From NCBI GenBank assembly GCA_009787355.1, contig WRGD01000142.1, positions 1 through 36,912 on the forward strand: a DNA stretch of 36,912 bases. Direction: 5' to 3'. Shown one piece after another: positions 304-28,979 of this stretch (positions are counted from its first letter, which is position 1; the number at the start of each line of letters is the position of its first letter). The notes beneath the pieces are model-generated. The model did no database searches, was not told where the DNA came from, and saw nothing but the letters and a program-made list of their open reading frames with translations. Source of the DNA: Defluviitaleaceae bacterium (GTDB lineage Bacteria > Bacillota > Clostridia > Lachnospirales > UBA5962). The translations under genes and the position numbers were made by a program.

Positions 304-1494
304 ATGGAGAAAAAATATACAATTTTTACTGGTAAAATGTTAGGTAGTTATAATTTGATAGATATGATATTTGGGGCATCGTATATCATATTAATGACGT
401 ATCATAACCTCAGCAGTCTTAACATTAGTTTTGTAATGGCACTTAGCTCATTAAGCTTAGCATTATTTGATTATCCCAGTGGTAATTTTGCTGATATATA
501 TGGGAGAAAAAAATCTACCGCAATAGGTTTTTTAATATGGGGTATAGGATTAATTATGTTTTCATTGTCAAAAACTTTATTGTTTTTTTCAGTAGCTACT
601 ATAATATCATCGTTGGGCATAGCACTTATAAGCGGCTCTCCTGTATCTTGGTATATTGATAAATTAAAGAGTATTGGCAAAATGGAATATAAAAATAAAG
701 CAATTCCAATATTAAACGGAGTATTGTCCCTTTTCTCAGCCATAGGTGCAACAATAGCAGCCTTATCGAATATGTTTAGCACCTTTAACCCATTATTTAT
801 TGCAGGTATTTTTTCCATAATAATTTCAGTAACAACTTATATATTTTTTGAAGATAATTATGGTGAGAGATTGTCTACTAATTTTGTTGGAGAAATTGTC
901 CAATCAACAAAAAAGTTTTTTAAAGATAAAGCAATGAATAAAATTCTTATTTATTATATGATTCAAAGGTTGCCACTAACAGCTTTTATAGTAGTTTGGC
1001 AATTATATTTTTTGTTAGATTTAGATGGTAATCCAGAGTTTATAGGATTTGCACTTATAATGTTTATGATTGCAGGCTCTATCTCAGGATTTCTATCAGC
1101 TAAGTTGGTAACAAAATATTCAAACTACAATTTAACAATATTAGCTAAAATAATAAATATTGTTGCATTGTTTTCGATATTTTTAATAGGAAATAATATA
1201 ATTAATTTTGCTGTTTTAGTTTTCATTTATGAATTTGGTCTGGGACTTGAAAATGCTAATAGAGGTGCATGGATGCAAGATTTAATCCCTAGTGAAAAAA
1301 GAAGTACCTACTATTCAGCAATGGGTGCAATAAATTCAGCTTTCATCTTTGTATGTATTTTGTTATTGGGTAAAGTAATGGTAACTTTAGGTAGAGAATT
1401 TATATGGATTATAGCAGGTTTAGCACAAATATTGTCTTTGTTATATTTAGTGATTTATATTGGGAAATATATAAAAAATAGAAAGGGGGTATGA
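304..1494 (+). CDS. MFS efflux transporter
   Basis: 396 residues with about twelve hydrophobic segments and no signal peptide, the usual size of a major facilitator superfamily drug-efflux protein. The loop after transmembrane segment 2 carries GNFADIYGRKK (about residues 60-70), the MFS motif-A position (GxLaDrxGrkr). The second half repeats the six-helix pattern. The start is the ATG at 304 behind TAGGAG. The gene is flanked on both sides by the same palindromic operator, which suggests joint control with the ABC genes that follow; MFS exporters next to ABC exporters are common in bacteriocin or antibiotic resistance cassettes. Substrate unknown. Family assignment is fairly sure, substrate class is inference. 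Confidence 0.8.
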   Translation: MEKKYTIFTGKMLGSYNLIDMIFGASYIILMTYHNLSSLNISFVMALSSLSLALFDYPSGNFADIYGRKKSTAIGFLIWGIGLIMFSLSKTLLFFSVATIISSLGIALISGSPVSWYIDKLKSIGKMEYKNKAIPILNGVLSLFSAIGATIAALSNMFSTFNPLFIAGIFSIIISVTTYIFFEDNYGERLSTNFVGEIVQSTKKFFKDKAMNKILIYYMIQRLPLTAFIVVWQLYFLLDLDGNPEFIGFALIMFMIAGSISGFLSAKLVTKYSNYNLTILAKIINIVALFSIFLIGNNIINFAVLVFIYEFGLGLENANRGAWMQDLIPSEKRSTYYSAMGAINSAFIFVCILLLGKVMVTLGREFIWIIAGLAQILSLLYLVIYIGKYIKNRKGV

Positions 1495-1585: not shown

Positions 1586-1645
1586 ATGAATAGATTTTTT
1601 GAAAAGGAAGAAAAATATGTTCGATTTAATAAAATATATCTCTAA
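1586..1645 (+). CDS. Possible 19-residue leader peptide
   Basis: The best ribosome binding site in this region (AAAAGGAG, 1569-1576) serves an ATG at 1586, not the ABC start at 1617. The ATG opens a 19-codon ORF (MNRFFEKEEKYVRFNKIYL) that ends at 1645, 28 nt inside the ABC gene in another frame. It may be a leader peptide coupling translation, or a relic of the original N-terminus shifted by an indel. No family recognised. Confidence 0.35.
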   Translation: MNRFFEKEEKYVRFNKIYL

Positions 1646-3092
1646 AAAAAATATTATATCTTATGTACTAGTTATAATATCTTCCAGAACACTTTTTATT
1701 TTATCTCCTTTATTTCTTTCTTTTTTTATAAATTCTGTAGTAGATAGAAATTTAGAATCTTCTATATTTTGGGCTGTAGTTATGTTTGCTAAATTTTTTT
1801 GGGAACAAATTAATAATTATTGCTATGGATATACAATAGAAAAATCGTTTGCTACTTCTTATTACAATATTTTCAATAAAATAAATAATAACCTAAAATC
1901 TTACGACATAAAAAATAAAAACATAACTGAAATAGAAATTCAGCAACAATTAGGTCAAAATTATGAAAATATAGAATATTTTATTTTTTACAATCCTATA
2001 GAATCTATAGCTTTTACACTTCAAACAATCGTTACATTAATAGTGGTATTTTCTATCTCTCCATTTGTAGCACTAACCATGTTTTTAATAGTACCTATAT
2101 CAATAATAACATCAAACTTTTTTGGAAAAAAATTATCGAAAGCATCTTTGAGCAATTTGGAAGACATGGAACAAATGAAAGATTTTATAAACGATAGTTA
2201 CAAACTTTCCAAAGAAGATAGATTTCTAAAACATAAGCAAATGATAGGAATGGAGAGTTTATTAAAACGATTTATGAAAAATGCTATTAAAAAAATAAAA
2301 ATCGAACAGTTTTACAATAATATCTTAATATATTCTATGATGAATTTTGCAATTTTAGTTATAAGTTTAATATCGGGTTATTTAGTATTTACAGAAGTTA
2401 TATACATAGGTTCATTTTTTGCCTTTACTTTATATACTTCTCATTTGTGGAGACCTATAGAGTTTTTAATGCAATATAGAAAAGATTATTTTTCTATAAA
2501 ACCAGCCTTAGATTCATTTAAAGAATTTTTGAATTTGGAACAAGCAAATTTTGAAAAAGAAAAAATAGAAAATTTAAGTTTAGATAATTTTATATCACTT
2601 GGAGAAAATAATTCAAAACTACATAAACCTTTAAATATAGAATTTGAAAAGAATAAATTTAATATAATAGCTGGTGAAAATGGTACAGGAAAAACAACCA
2701 TTGTAGAGGCTATTTTAAATTTTAATAGTAGGTTTGAGGGTAGTATAAATATAAACAATAAAAATAAATTTTTTGATGACATGGTGTATATTTCTGCAAA
2801 ACCGTATATAAGTAAATTTGGAAATTTGAAAAATATTTTTAATGGTTCTTATGGTCAACAAAAAATAGCACAAATAGAATTTGCTATAAAAACTGAAAAA
2901 AGTGTATATATCTTTGATGAACCAACAAATTATTTGGATAAAAACAATAAAGAAATTGTTATTAAAATTTTAGAAAATCTTGTGAAAAAAGATAAAATAC
3001 TAATAATAGTTAGTCATGATGAAGAATTGATAAATCATGAATTTTCAAATGTTTATAGATTGGAAAAAATAATGAAACCTCTGGAGATATAA
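1617..3092 (+). CDS. ABC exporter, fused membrane and ATPase domains
   Basis: 491 residues. The N-terminal 300 hold five or six transmembrane segments of an ABC exporter; the C-terminal 150 are a compact nucleotide-binding domain. Walker A is GENGTGKT (about 353-360), Walker B is VYIFDEP (about 430-436), and the H-loop is VSHDEE. The signature motif is degenerate (NGSYGQQ for LSGGQ), the Q-loop region is unusual (YISAKPYI), and the helical subdomain is short. The start is the ATG at 1617 with AAAAGGAAG at 1602-1610; an in-frame TTG at 1599 is less likely. Such one-piece exporters often move peptides or lipids as homodimers. The C-terminus abuts a deletion junction with the next gene. Substrate unknown. 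Confidence 0.75.
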   Translation: MFDLIKYISKKNIISYVLVIISSRTLFILSPLFLSFFINSVVDRNLESSIFWAVVMFAKFFWEQINNYCYGYTIEKSFATSYYNIFNKINNNLKSYDIKNKNITEIEIQQQLGQNYENIEYFIFYNPIESIAFTLQTIVTLIVVFSISPFVALTMFLIVPISIITSNFFGKKLSKASLSNLEDMEQMKDFINDSYKLSKEDRFLKHKQMIGMESLLKRFMKNAIKKIKIEQFYNNILIYSMMNFAILVISLISGYLVFTEVIYIGSFFAFTLYTSHLWRPIEFLMQYRKDYFSIKPALDSFKEFLNLEQANFEKEKIENLSLDNFISLGENNSKLHKPLNIEFEKNKFNIIAGENGTGKTTIVEAILNFNSRFEGSININNKNKFFDDMVYISAKPYISKFGNLKNIFNGSYGQQKIAQIEFAIKTEKSVYIFDEPTNYLDKNNKEIVIKILENLVKKDKILIIVSHDEELINHEFSNVYRLEKIMKPLEI

Positions 3093-3841
3093 AAGTTTTA
3101 GGGAAAAATCCTTTTAAAAATAGACTTGAAAATAATAAGAAAATTGGTGTAGTGTTTGGACAAAGAACACAATTAAACTGGGATTTATCTACTATAGACA
3201 CCTTAAATTTATTAAAAATAATGTACAAAATTGATGATACTACATTTAATAATAATATAGAAATTTTCACTAATATGTTCAATATGAAAGATTTTATAAA
3301 TAGACCAGTCCGAACATTAAGTTTGGGTCAGAGGATGCAATGTGAATTATTAGCTTCAATTCTTCATAACCCAGACATATTATTTTTAGATGAGCCAACT
3401 ATAGGATTAGATGTTTTTAGTAAAGATAATATTATAAATTTTTTGAAATATATCAAAGAAAATTTTAGAACAACCTTAATATTAACAACTCATGATTTAG
3501 AAGATATATCAAAAATTTGTAATAGAGTTATTGTACTAAATGAAGGTAAGATACTACTTGAGGATGATATATCAAAATTAATTTCACTTAGTAATGAAAT
3601 GAAAAAGATAATTTTTACAACAGAAAACGAAATAGTAGAAGATTTAAATAATTTAAGTAAATATAAAAGTGAATATAATTCTCGAAAAATAACTATAGAT
3701 GATGTAAAAAAAGAAGAAATTCACGAAATAATAGCAGATATTACAAATAAATATTCTGTTAAAGACATTAAAATTGAAGAAAAAAATTTCACTTTAATAG
3801 TAAAAGAATACCTTTCATCTAAAAAGGAGGGTATGGAATGA
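3059..3841 (+). pseudogene. ABC-2 ATPase (COG4586 type), N-terminus deleted
   Basis: From 3059 the frame is open and reads IGKNNETSGDIKVLGK, then VVFGQRTQLNWDL, LSLGQRMQCELLASIL, ILFLDEPTIGLD and LTTHDLEDI. This matches the COG4586 ATPase family from just after Walker A to the end. The first roughly 80 residues, including the Walker A P-loop (GPNGAGKST in relatives), are absent and the in-frame TAG at 3056-3058 shows nothing upstream is joined. The first ATG is at 3152 and would give 229 residues. Signature, Walker B and switch His are intact, so the loss looks like one deletion that fused the end of the previous ABC gene to this one. Without a P-loop it should not bind ATP normally. Confidence 0.75.
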
Positions 3842-4635
3842 TAAATTTATTAAAATTTATATTGTTTAATTCCAAACTTATTTTTAAATCTTTATTGGTG
3901 TATCGAAGTGCTACAATTTTGAAATTAGTAACATCTATATTTTTGATTTTTATTTATATTTTTTTATGGAGAGGAATTTATGGAGAGAGAACAGTTTTAA
4001 ATGGTAGAACTTTAGAAGATATTATTTTGTTTATTATTATATTAAGAATAATTCGTCAAATTTATCCTTTACATATTGCTGGGACGTATGGGAATTTTAT
4101 AAAAAATGGTACAATTAGTACATATCTTTTAAAGCCTATTTCGATAGAAATACGCTTATTTTCTCAGTCCTTGGGTCTTGCAATGCACAATATGATTTTT
4201 ATTGGTTTACCATCTCTTATTACACTCTTATTTTTGAATTATTTACCTAATATTTCTGTTTATATTTTTCTCGTATCCTTAATTTGGTTTTCTAGTGCAT
4301 TTATTTTTTTGTTTTTATTTGAATTAAATATAGGTGTTATAGGATATTATACAACTAGTCTTTGGGGTATTAATAGTTTTAAAATAGCTATCATTTCTTT
4401 TTTAGCAGGTGAATTAATTCCTTTAAGTTTTTATCCAACATCTGTGTTAAATTTAATATATTATTTGCCTTTTAGAGCAGTTTATTATATTCCAATTTCG
4501 TTGTTAGTAGGTAATGATATAAGTGATATAAATATTTCGTTTATATTACTGTGGATTTTCAATATATTTCTTTTTGCTATTTATTATTACAACTCAAAAA
4601 GAATGATAAAAAAAATAATGATACAGGGAGGATAA
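3838..4635 (+). CDS. ABC-2 type permease (COG4587 type)
   Basis: 265 residues with six hydrophobic segments, typical of the ABC-2 permease family COG4587 that accompanies COG4586 ATPases. Recognisable features are an early GERTVLNGRTLEDI loop, an FIKNGTISTYLLKPI segment and an ELIPLSFYP segment in the second half. The ATG at 3838 overlaps the stop of the ATPase by four bases and has AAGGAGG upstream, so the two were translationally coupled. It would form the membrane channel with the next gene product. With the ATPase lacking its P-loop, export activity is doubtful unless another ATPase substitutes. Confidence 0.8.
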   Translation: MINLLKFILFNSKLIFKSLLVYRSATILKLVTSIFLIFIYIFLWRGIYGERTVLNGRTLEDIILFIIILRIIRQIYPLHIAGTYGNFIKNGTISTYLLKPISIEIRLFSQSLGLAMHNMIFIGLPSLITLLFLNYLPNISVYIFLVSLIWFSSAFIFLFLFELNIGVIGYYTTSLWGINSFKIAIISFLAGELIPLSFYPTSVLNLIYYLPFRAVYYIPISLLVGNDISDINISFILLWIFNIFLFAIYYYNSKRMIKKIMIQGG

Positions 4636-5415
4636 ATGAAACAGAAAATTTTACTTTTCAAATATTTTTTTAAAATGAATTTCAAGGCTTTAGAAATTTA
4701 TGATAAAGATTTTATTATTGGTGTAATAACTATGGTTATCAAATACGTTGTAAGTATAACTGCTTTAATATTTATTTTTGATTTTATACAAGATATAAAT
4801 GGATGGGATTTGGATGGGTTATTACTTATATATGGTTTAAACTTAATTGGGTTTTCACTTTGGTCAAGCCTTTTTATAAATACTATATCATTACCTTATT
4901 ATATTAGAGATGGAGAATTTGATAGGTTTTTACTTCGTCCAATTCATCCATTATTTCAAATAATGATGGATGGTTTTGATGAAGATTCTTGGGGTGAGTT
5001 GATTGTTGGTATTATTATTTTAATAATTGCGTGGACTAGACTAGATATTACATGGTCCTATTTAATTTTTGTACCCTTTATTGCAGTAGCTGGTTGTTTA
5101 ATTTATGCAGGTATTTCAATCCTTCTCTCTACAGTTTCTTTTTTTACTATAACTCAATCAGATGTAGCAAATCTTACATTTGAAATTAAAGAACTGGCAA
5201 GGTATCCTTTTACTATTTATCCTAAAACTATTAGTATTTTTTTTACATTTATTGTTCCTATTGCGTTGGTATCTTTTACTCCAGCATCTATTATTTTAGG
5301 TATGTACTCGCCTTTGGTTTTTCTTTTGTTTCCCATAATAGGATATTTATTTTATAGATTTTCTAAATTTGTTTGGGGTTTTGGAGTTAGATATTATGGA
5401 AGTACGGGAACCTAA
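4636..5415 (+). CDS. ABC-2 type permease (COG3694 type)
   Basis: 259 residues, six transmembrane segments, matching the COG3694 permease family that is the third member of COG4586/4587/3694 operons. It has the RDGEFDRFLLRP segment corresponding to the KNGTISTYLLKP segment of the preceding permease, followed by an acidic insert (MDGFDEDSWGE). Its ATG directly follows the TAA of the previous gene, with GGGAGG overlapping that end. Substrates of this family are not firmly established; drug or antimicrobial export is an inference from context. No clear hairpin terminator follows. Confidence 0.8.
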   Translation: MKQKILLFKYFFKMNFKALEIYDKDFIIGVITMVIKYVVSITALIFIFDFIQDINGWDLDGLLLIYGLNLIGFSLWSSLFINTISLPYYIRDGEFDRFLLRPIHPLFQIMMDGFDEDSWGELIVGIIILIIAWTRLDITWSYLIFVPFIAVAGCLIYAGISILLSTVSFFTITQSDVANLTFEIKELARYPFTIYPKTISIFFTFIVPIALVSFTPASIILGMYSPLVFLLFPIIGYLFYRFSKFVWGFGVRYYGSTGT

Positions 5416-26957: not shown

Positions 26958-28979
26958 ATGGAGCTTAGACCCGAAGAAATAAGCCAGGTTATTAAATCTC
27001 ACATAATGGAATACACAAATAAAGTAGAGCTCGAAGCTGTTGGAACTGTTATTCAGGTTGGAGACGGTATTGCAAGAGTTTATGGACTAAACAATGCAAT
27101 GAGTGGAGAGTTACTTAGTTTTGAAAACGGTGTTGTTGGTATGGCATTAAATCTTGAAGAAGACAACATTGGTGTTGTTCTTTTGGGTAGCGATGCTGGC
27201 ATAAAAGAAGGCGATACTGTAAAACTAACTGGAAAAGTTGCAGAAATAGGAGTAGGTGATGCCTTACTAGGTAGAGTTGTAAATGCCTTGGGTGAACCTA
27301 TAGACGAAAAAGGACCTATTGAAACTACTGCAACAAGACCTATAGAACGAGAAGCACCCGGTGTTATTACAAGGCAAGAAGTAAATATACCTCTTCAAAC
27401 AGGTATAAAATCTATAGATGCTATGGTTCCTATAGGACGTGGTCAACGTGAGCTAATAATAGGTGATAGACAAACAGGAAAAACAGCTATTTGTATAGAT
27501 ACTATTATCAACCAAAAAGGGCAAGGTATAAACTGTATATATGTTGCAATTGGACAAAAAGCTAGTACAGTTGCACGTATTGTGAAATCGCTAGAAGAAG
27601 CTGGAGCTATGGAATATACTACAATAGTTGTAGCTAGTGCAAGTGAAGTTGCACCACTACAATATCTTGCTCCATATTCCGGTGTTGCAATTGCGGAACA
27701 TTGGTTGTACGAAGGAAGTAAATTTGGTAAAGACTGTTTAATAGTTTACGACGATTTAAGTAAACATGCAGTTGCATACCGTGCATTGTCTCTATTACTT
27801 CGTAGACCTCCAGGACGTGAGGCATATCCTGGAGATGTTTTTTACCTTCACTCTAGATTGTTGGAACGTGCCGTAAAACTAAACCCAGAATTTGGAGGAG
27901 GTTCTATTACAGCATTACCAGTAATAGAAACACAAGCTGGAGATGTTTCTGCATATATACCAACAAATGTTATATCTATAACAGACGGGCAAATATTTTT
28001 AGAAGCAAGTTTATTCAACTCTGGTGTTAGACCAGCTATAAACCCAGGTTTGTCTGTTTCTCGTGTTGGTGGTAGTGCACAAATAAAGGCAATGAAAAAG
28101 ATATCTGGCCCTATTCGTATAGAGCTTGCTCAATATAGAGAGCTTGCTGCTTTTGCACAATTCGGTTCAGATTTGGATAAAGCAACGCTTGAAAGATTAG
28201 AGCATGGTAAACGTATAGTTGAAATGTTGAAACAAGGACAATTCAAACCTTTAAGTGTGGCACAAGAAGTTATAACACTTTTTGCTACAACTAAAGGATA
28301 TTTAAAGGATGTTGAAGTAAGCCGAGTTGTAGAATTTGAAACAGCTTTACTTGACTACTTAGAAAATAATAGTTTTGTAATAACAGGTCTTGAAAGTGTT
28401 GCAACAAACGAACAATTTGTAAAAGTATTTAAAAATGGAAGTATACCAAAATTAGAAAAAATTGATGTAGATATTTCTAATTTACCAAAAGATTTTACAT
28501 CCGAAGTGCAGGACAAAATTTCAAAAATTTTAGAAGAAGCTATAAAAGAAGAAATTTCTAAAGATGCTCTTTCAAAACTTGTAATAGATTTAATGAAAAT
28601 TTTTGAAGAAGAGTCCAAAAAAAGTGCAGATATATCTAAAAGAGAACTATTTATGTCTTACGCTGCTTTAATAATAAATATTGTAAACACAGCCGAGTTT
28701 GATAATTCATCAAAAAATGTTATTTTAGAAAATCTTAAATCTTTAAAGATAAATAGTGTAATATCTTCTGAAAGTAAAGATTTCTTACTGGCAACTATTG
28801 CAACGTTACAATGTATTATTACTCTTCTTGTAGCAAATGTTTTAGTATCTGACAAAGAAAAAGATATTAAAAAATTAGCTTTAAAGGCTATAGATATATT
28901 GCAAAATGAATCAGAAGAAATTTTAGAAATTTCTATTCATTCGGATATTTTAGATTTCAAGCAAACAGCTTGGAAATAG
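26958..28979 (+). CDS. atpA: ATP synthase F1 subunit alpha with ~170-residue C-terminal extension
   Basis: 673 residues, against about 500-515 in typical bacterial alpha subunits. Residues 1-470 are a normal alpha: beta-barrel domain, P-loop GDRQTGKT (169-176), [14 protein letters not shown], and the C-terminal helical region up to LLDYLEN. From about residue 471 the sequence departs from the usual ending and runs on for 203 residues without a stop. This tail is mostly helical and charged, with two hydrophobic stretches (about 564-578 and 609-630, the latter [20 protein letters not shown]). Codon use does not change at the join. AAAGGAGG at the end of atpH serves the ATG, and atpG follows 13 bases later with AGGAGG. 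I recognise no domain in the tail. Confidence 0.95.

Follow-up and report, generated by a model that had tools for sequence, protein, structure and literature searches.

Three known systems come closest to the locus described here. One is the ABC-2 type transporter that we take, in line with an earlier sequence-only reading of this DNA, to be of the COG4586/COG4587/COG3694 type, an ATPase (PF00005) with two permeases (PF06182). The gene order ATPase, permease, permease is common to that transporter and our locus, but here the ATPase lacks its start and Walker A. The second is the pairing of a radical-SAM gene with an ABC exporter in the loci L037, L066 and L067, whose exporters belong to the same family as ours (47%, 45% and 45% identity) and share a 29-nt overlap between the two genes; our locus, in contrast, has neither maturase nor precursor. 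A more distant pair, without overlap, lies on the Sarcina plasmid NZ_CP051759 (L042), where the exporter is 33% identical over 53% of the query. The third comprises ABC-transporter immunity genes common to several bacteriocin clusters, such as the MR10A/B transporter (PMC10598978), likewise a peptide transporter not tied to one peptide gene; it differs in transporter type from our exporter, for which an immunity role is putative. In the literature searched, no paper combined two of COG4586, COG4587 and COG3694, and none combined radical SAM, RiPP, gene loss, exporter and immunity.

The window, that is, the whole stretch of 36,912 nucleotides analysed, is a complete contig from the draft genome of a Defluviitaleaceae bacterium, assembled in 152 contigs. 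The reading we favour, and regard as reasonably probable, is that part of it is a decayed radical-SAM peptide cluster in which the precursor, the maturase and the start of a neighboring COG4586-type ATPase have been lost while the exporter is complete. The features concerned are as follows:

170 to 189, no strand: first copy of the palindrome, TATAGACAAATTTGTCTATT, 5' of the MFS gene, with one mismatch on the second strand (pattern search)
304 to 1494, plus strand: MFS transporter, open reading frame of 396 aa (PF07690)
1503 to 1522, no strand: second copy of the palindrome, TATAGACAAATTTGTCTATA; near-identical sites stand before putative peptide-precursor operons on contigs C56 and C145
1523 to 1585, plus strand: promoter region and ribosome-binding site, resembling sites on C56, C145 and C137 (58-base comparison)
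1586 to 1645, plus strand: 19-codon ORF, probably left over from a lost precursor start and the 3' end of a radical-SAM gene, with a 29-nt overlap with the exporter start
1617 to 3092, plus strand: ABC exporter of 491 aa, membrane domain and complete ATPase domain (Pfam, alignment to relatives)
3060 to 3080, plus strand: junction at which the exporter end meets the ATPase downstream of the P-loop position; resemblance to the family from about 3077
3059 to 3841, plus strand: COG4586-like ATPase without its 5' part, open frame; first listed start GTG at 3152
3838 to 4635, plus strand: ABC-2 type permease of 265 aa, open (PF06182)
4636 to 5415, plus strand: ABC-2 type permease of 259 aa, open (PF06182)

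Elsewhere in the window, an ATGGCA hexamer repeat occupies positions 1–97, the very start of the contig, and an ORF of 673 aa at 26958–28979 encodes an ATP synthase alpha subunit whose Pfam matches stop at residue 472, with about 200 unassigned C-terminal residues beyond.

The COG4586-type ATPase is truncated. The exporter reading frame runs from an ATG at 1617 to its stop at 3092, and the ATPase frame, one base off, is open from 3059 to 3841. When the remnant is aligned with 23 COG4586-type ATPases, to which it is 34–48% identical, the residues read from 3062 (GKNNE) fit the family only at the first G, and the match begins with TSGDIK at about base 3077. Walker A lies 5' of this junction column in all 23 homologues and is absent from the remnant; 18 of them carry 69–86 residues before the column and the other five 25, 65, 91, 114 and 118, as counted in stop-to-stop frames that may extend upstream of the true start. 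The sequence-only reading had described an ATPase without its N-terminus and Walker A, and these counts bear it out. What that reading saw as retained is indeed there: the remnant's translation contains what we take to be the signature (LSLGQR), Walker B (LFLDEPT) and the His switch (TTHD), and both permease partners are intact, being open and matching PF06182. The Q-loop region and the VFGQ region are present too. Its description of two fused ABC genes needs one correction: they are not joined in one frame, and the exporter stop falls inside the ATPase remnant.

An ABC ATPase without a P-loop is not expected to work as an ATPase. Because the P-loop went with the first 70–85 or so codons, the remnant is predicted to be unable to bind ATP, which would leave both permeases without a partner at the locus; the COG4586-type transporter is most likely dead. 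Elsewhere in the genome, contig C84 carries an intact COG4586-type ATPase, 39% identical to the remnant and adjoining its own two permeases. The sequence-only reading had weighed a dead transporter against a rescue in which the permeases use the exporter's ATPase domain, to which one may add a frameshift at the A-run 3064–3069 that would yield an exporter–ATPase fusion. Permeases and remnant are open, and a run of six A stands where the frames meet; yet the exporter chain itself already contains a whole ATPase domain, and the remnant lies in the other frame with, by eye, no convincing start. A ribosomal frameshift signal was considered and rejected, the downstream RNA being no better folded than shuffled versions (z 0.90; equalled or exceeded in stability by 164 of 200 shuffles). 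We therefore hold a dead transporter to be the likelier of the two, and rescue to be very improbable. Among the terminator-like sites listed, none falls between the exporter and the remnant.

The exporter, by comparison, is intact. Its own chain holds segments that we take to be Walker A, a family-type signature, Walker B and the His switch. In addition to the relatives named above, it is 45% identical to the exporter of L065, 37% to that of L034 and 36% to that of L068, with L037 and L034 aligning over the full length. At the C-terminus, L037 ends in VVYRLA, and the window's protein reaches VYRL, after which L037 has one residue more, and continues VYRLEKIMKPLEI. Given the full-length alignment, the motifs and the VYRL end, the exporter has probably lost at most a few of its last codons. 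It most likely continues to export a peptide or something similar.

Upstream of the exporter, the relatives are organized differently. An intact radical-SAM gene adjoins the exporter in L037, L066 and L067 and overlaps its start by the 29 nt mentioned above; the genes of L037 and L067 match PF04055, and the relatives' radical-SAM genes score below the cut-off of every listed NCBIfam model. This comparison covered the radical-SAM gene and the exporter. In the window, the 19-codon ORF at 1586–1645 occupies the place of the radical-SAM gene, also with a 29-nt overlap, and it is all that we found in the window of a maturase gene, or of a precursor peptide gene between promoter and exporter. Part of this overlap follows from the conservation of the exporter start; it measures 32 nt in L034, L068 and L069, and the more distant Sarcina exporter has none. 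Outside the overlap, the window's tail resembles that of L037 weakly, 7% of shuffles scoring at least as high, which is not significant alone, and scores against L067, L068 and L069 are negative.

The promoter is stronger evidence for a second scar than the ORF overlap. The palindrome at 1503–1522 occurs at five places in the genome with at most two mismatches on either strand and at seven more with three; as a control, the reversed pattern matched once on the forward and once on the reverse strand at up to three mismatches. Perfect or near-perfect copies of this 20-bp element (in the window, L083, L084 and L085) stand before the MFS gene, the exporter, the radical-SAM operons of C56 and C145 and a split MFS gene on C137, and from this arrangement the five sites likely form a regulon. 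On C56 and C145, the palindromes precede genes for short peptides that contain Cys and Ser (29 and 36 codons) and then radical-SAM genes, with two ABC-transporter genes (one checked with Pfam) behind the radical-SAM gene or genes of C145; their size, place and neighbors suggest that the short genes are precursors.

Agreement with the window's exporter site extends past the palindrome. Over the 58 bases behind its core, 37 are equal on C56, 36 on C145 and 46 on C137, values reached, with the site itself included, by 4, 7 and 2 of 180574 background positions drawn from seven stretches of the same genome. The MFS promoter at 170, by contrast, shares the palindrome only, agreeing at 29 of 58 bases, which 1751 of 180574 positions reach. 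Moreover, ATG 1586 stands at the position of a precursor start, at +79 as against +94 and +87 in the C56 and C145 operons. Because the promoter resembles those of precursor operons and ATG 1586 lies where a precursor would begin, the precursor and radical-SAM maturase have probably been lost at this locus.

The other palindrome-bearing loci have features of their own. The C137 MFS gene (L085, 379–1590) is split into two ORFs, both PF07690-like and one of them below the cut-off, and upstream of it a frame that lacks a start, NCKGGCPYRNYRQYGNYYGGET, may be a peptide remnant. In the C56 operon (L083, 257–6497), Pfam identifies two radical-SAM genes and, below the cut-off, a peptidase S24-like protein; inspection by eye adds a third radical-SAM gene, an ABC transporter and a nitroreductase-like gene.

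We infer that the locus once included a precursor and a maturase, and that deletions caused both scars. Loss of these two genes would have brought a precursor-type promoter directly before the exporter and left the 19-codon ORF; a second loss, on the other side, would have removed the first 70–85 or so codons of the COG4586-type ATPase together with its P-loop, leaving that transporter dead and an orphan exporter that was kept. The single deletion proposed by the sequence-only reading would account for the missing ATPase start, but is too narrow an explanation: given the probable second scar 5' of the exporter (1586–1645), either two deletions or one insertion of an exporter cassette would be needed.

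Two scars within 1.5 kb of a 152-contig draft also raise the question of an assembly or binning error, in which a wrong join in the contig hides an ATPase start that is intact in the true genome. The state of the remnant is compatible with this, as its frame is without any stop and its departures from the family stay inside the family's range. At the 90% level, counting columns common to 90% of the other sequences, it departs at 5 of 39 family columns (1 at the junction), or 4 of 38 without the junction, where members depart at 0–9; at the 80% level, the figures are 9 of 48 (2 at the junction), 7 of 46 and 0–15. These departures lie on the high side, with at least 4 in 5 of 23 members at the 90% level and at least 7 in 8 of 23 at the 80% level, a pattern that fits a recent loss or an artefact and would be compatible with mild decay too. 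Searching the same genome with the homologue segment that corresponds to the missing ATPase part gave 70 matches, a number expected for ABC ATPases, of which the intact C84 gene was by far the best (E 4.3e-19) and the next (6.1e-13) covered part of the query; the others were not inspected one by one, so that an orphan piece may be among them. The radical-SAM genes matched in a search of the same genome number three, located on other contigs in open frames of 349–481 aa. Both results, and the presence of maturase-less exporters in other genomes, count against a misjoin, which we consider unlikely.

Those other genomes supply seven further loci that cover the exporter wholly or for the most part (L034, L037, L065, L066, L067, L068 and L069). 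A radical-SAM gene is present in three of the seven, which amount to two cases because the exporter proteins of L066 and L067 are identical and were counted once. L065 keeps only some 21–26 codons of the radical-SAM gene (a number judged by eye), L068 has a tail of some 40–50 codons that looks L067-like by eye, and almost nothing of the tail is recognisable in L034. The exporter of L069 is itself broken too; those of the window, L065, L068 and L034 are open. An exporter without its maturase thus recurs clearly in L065, likely in L068 and weakly in L034. The count leaves out L035 and L036 (21% and 24%), L027–L032 (19–25%), the distant L042 and L043, and L070, which has only a 3' exporter piece. 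Behind the L067 exporter lies an ABC fragment that looks, by eye, like a separate decayed gene with its own P-loop. The idea that exporter and COG4586-type system form a unit was weakened, since, of the exporter loci examined, just the window and L068 have the two as neighbors, with the order differing between them; among the 23 homologues, the ATPase of L068 is the least identical to the remnant, at 34%.

The same relatives bear on an insertion, in which a cassette of the exporter and the last radical-SAM codons was put into a COG4586-type operon in place of the ATPase start. Over 1543 bp, comprising the exporter with 53 bp upstream and 23 bp downstream, L065 agrees with L066 and L067 at 99.35% identity; between L065 and L067, the exporter genes show 3 synonymous and 2 non-synonymous codon differences. 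Within the stretches fetched, no DNA is shared beyond this segment, both flanks being different, as if the exporter were a mobile unit; L065 may have lost its radical-SAM gene where it stood or acquired the exporter as one segment. L066 and L067 also look transposase-rich by eye. In the window, however, the exporter has a promoter of the peptide-precursor kind and shares its palindrome with the upstream MFS gene, so it seems to sit in its own cluster, and inspection, made without a repeat search around the junctions, identified no insertion end. On this evidence, we rate a cassette insertion as rather improbable and favor deletion on both sides of the exporter.

No close relative of the whole locus was found in the genomes searched, so no breakpoint is visible. 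With the ATPase (57 genomes, limit 1e-40), the best foreign match was 41% over the full length. Neither the permeases, in 7 family and 392 order genomes (limit 1e-35, own genome included), nor the exporter, in 7, 392, 391 and 398 genomes of the family, order, class and phylum (overlapping samples, with three or four candidates per genome scored in the latter three), gave a close relative of the locus. An exporter search of genome contigs returned 45 stretches from 3 loci, with L034 the only full-length relative, and one of plasmids returned 31 records, all below 60% identity. In the collection searched, the genus of L065 comprised three genomes, all already known.

Overall, the locus has the look of ordinary decay that one exporter gene survived, and the truncated ATPase by itself is an ordinary pseudogene. 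Survival of the exporter without its maturase suggests that the orphan was kept, perhaps because it confers immunity to a peptide. More tentatively, we can envision that these losses placed the exporter under a regulated precursor promoter and turned a production cluster into an immunity-only one, that such losses were repeated in the family, and that the exporter is the selected unit with the scarred ATPase as by-product, a possibility to which we give less than even weight. If this is true, the exporter family would be a mark of immunity that persists after production of the peptide has ceased, and the palindrome common to these sites would provide a handle on the possible joint control of several peptide clusters in this bacterium.
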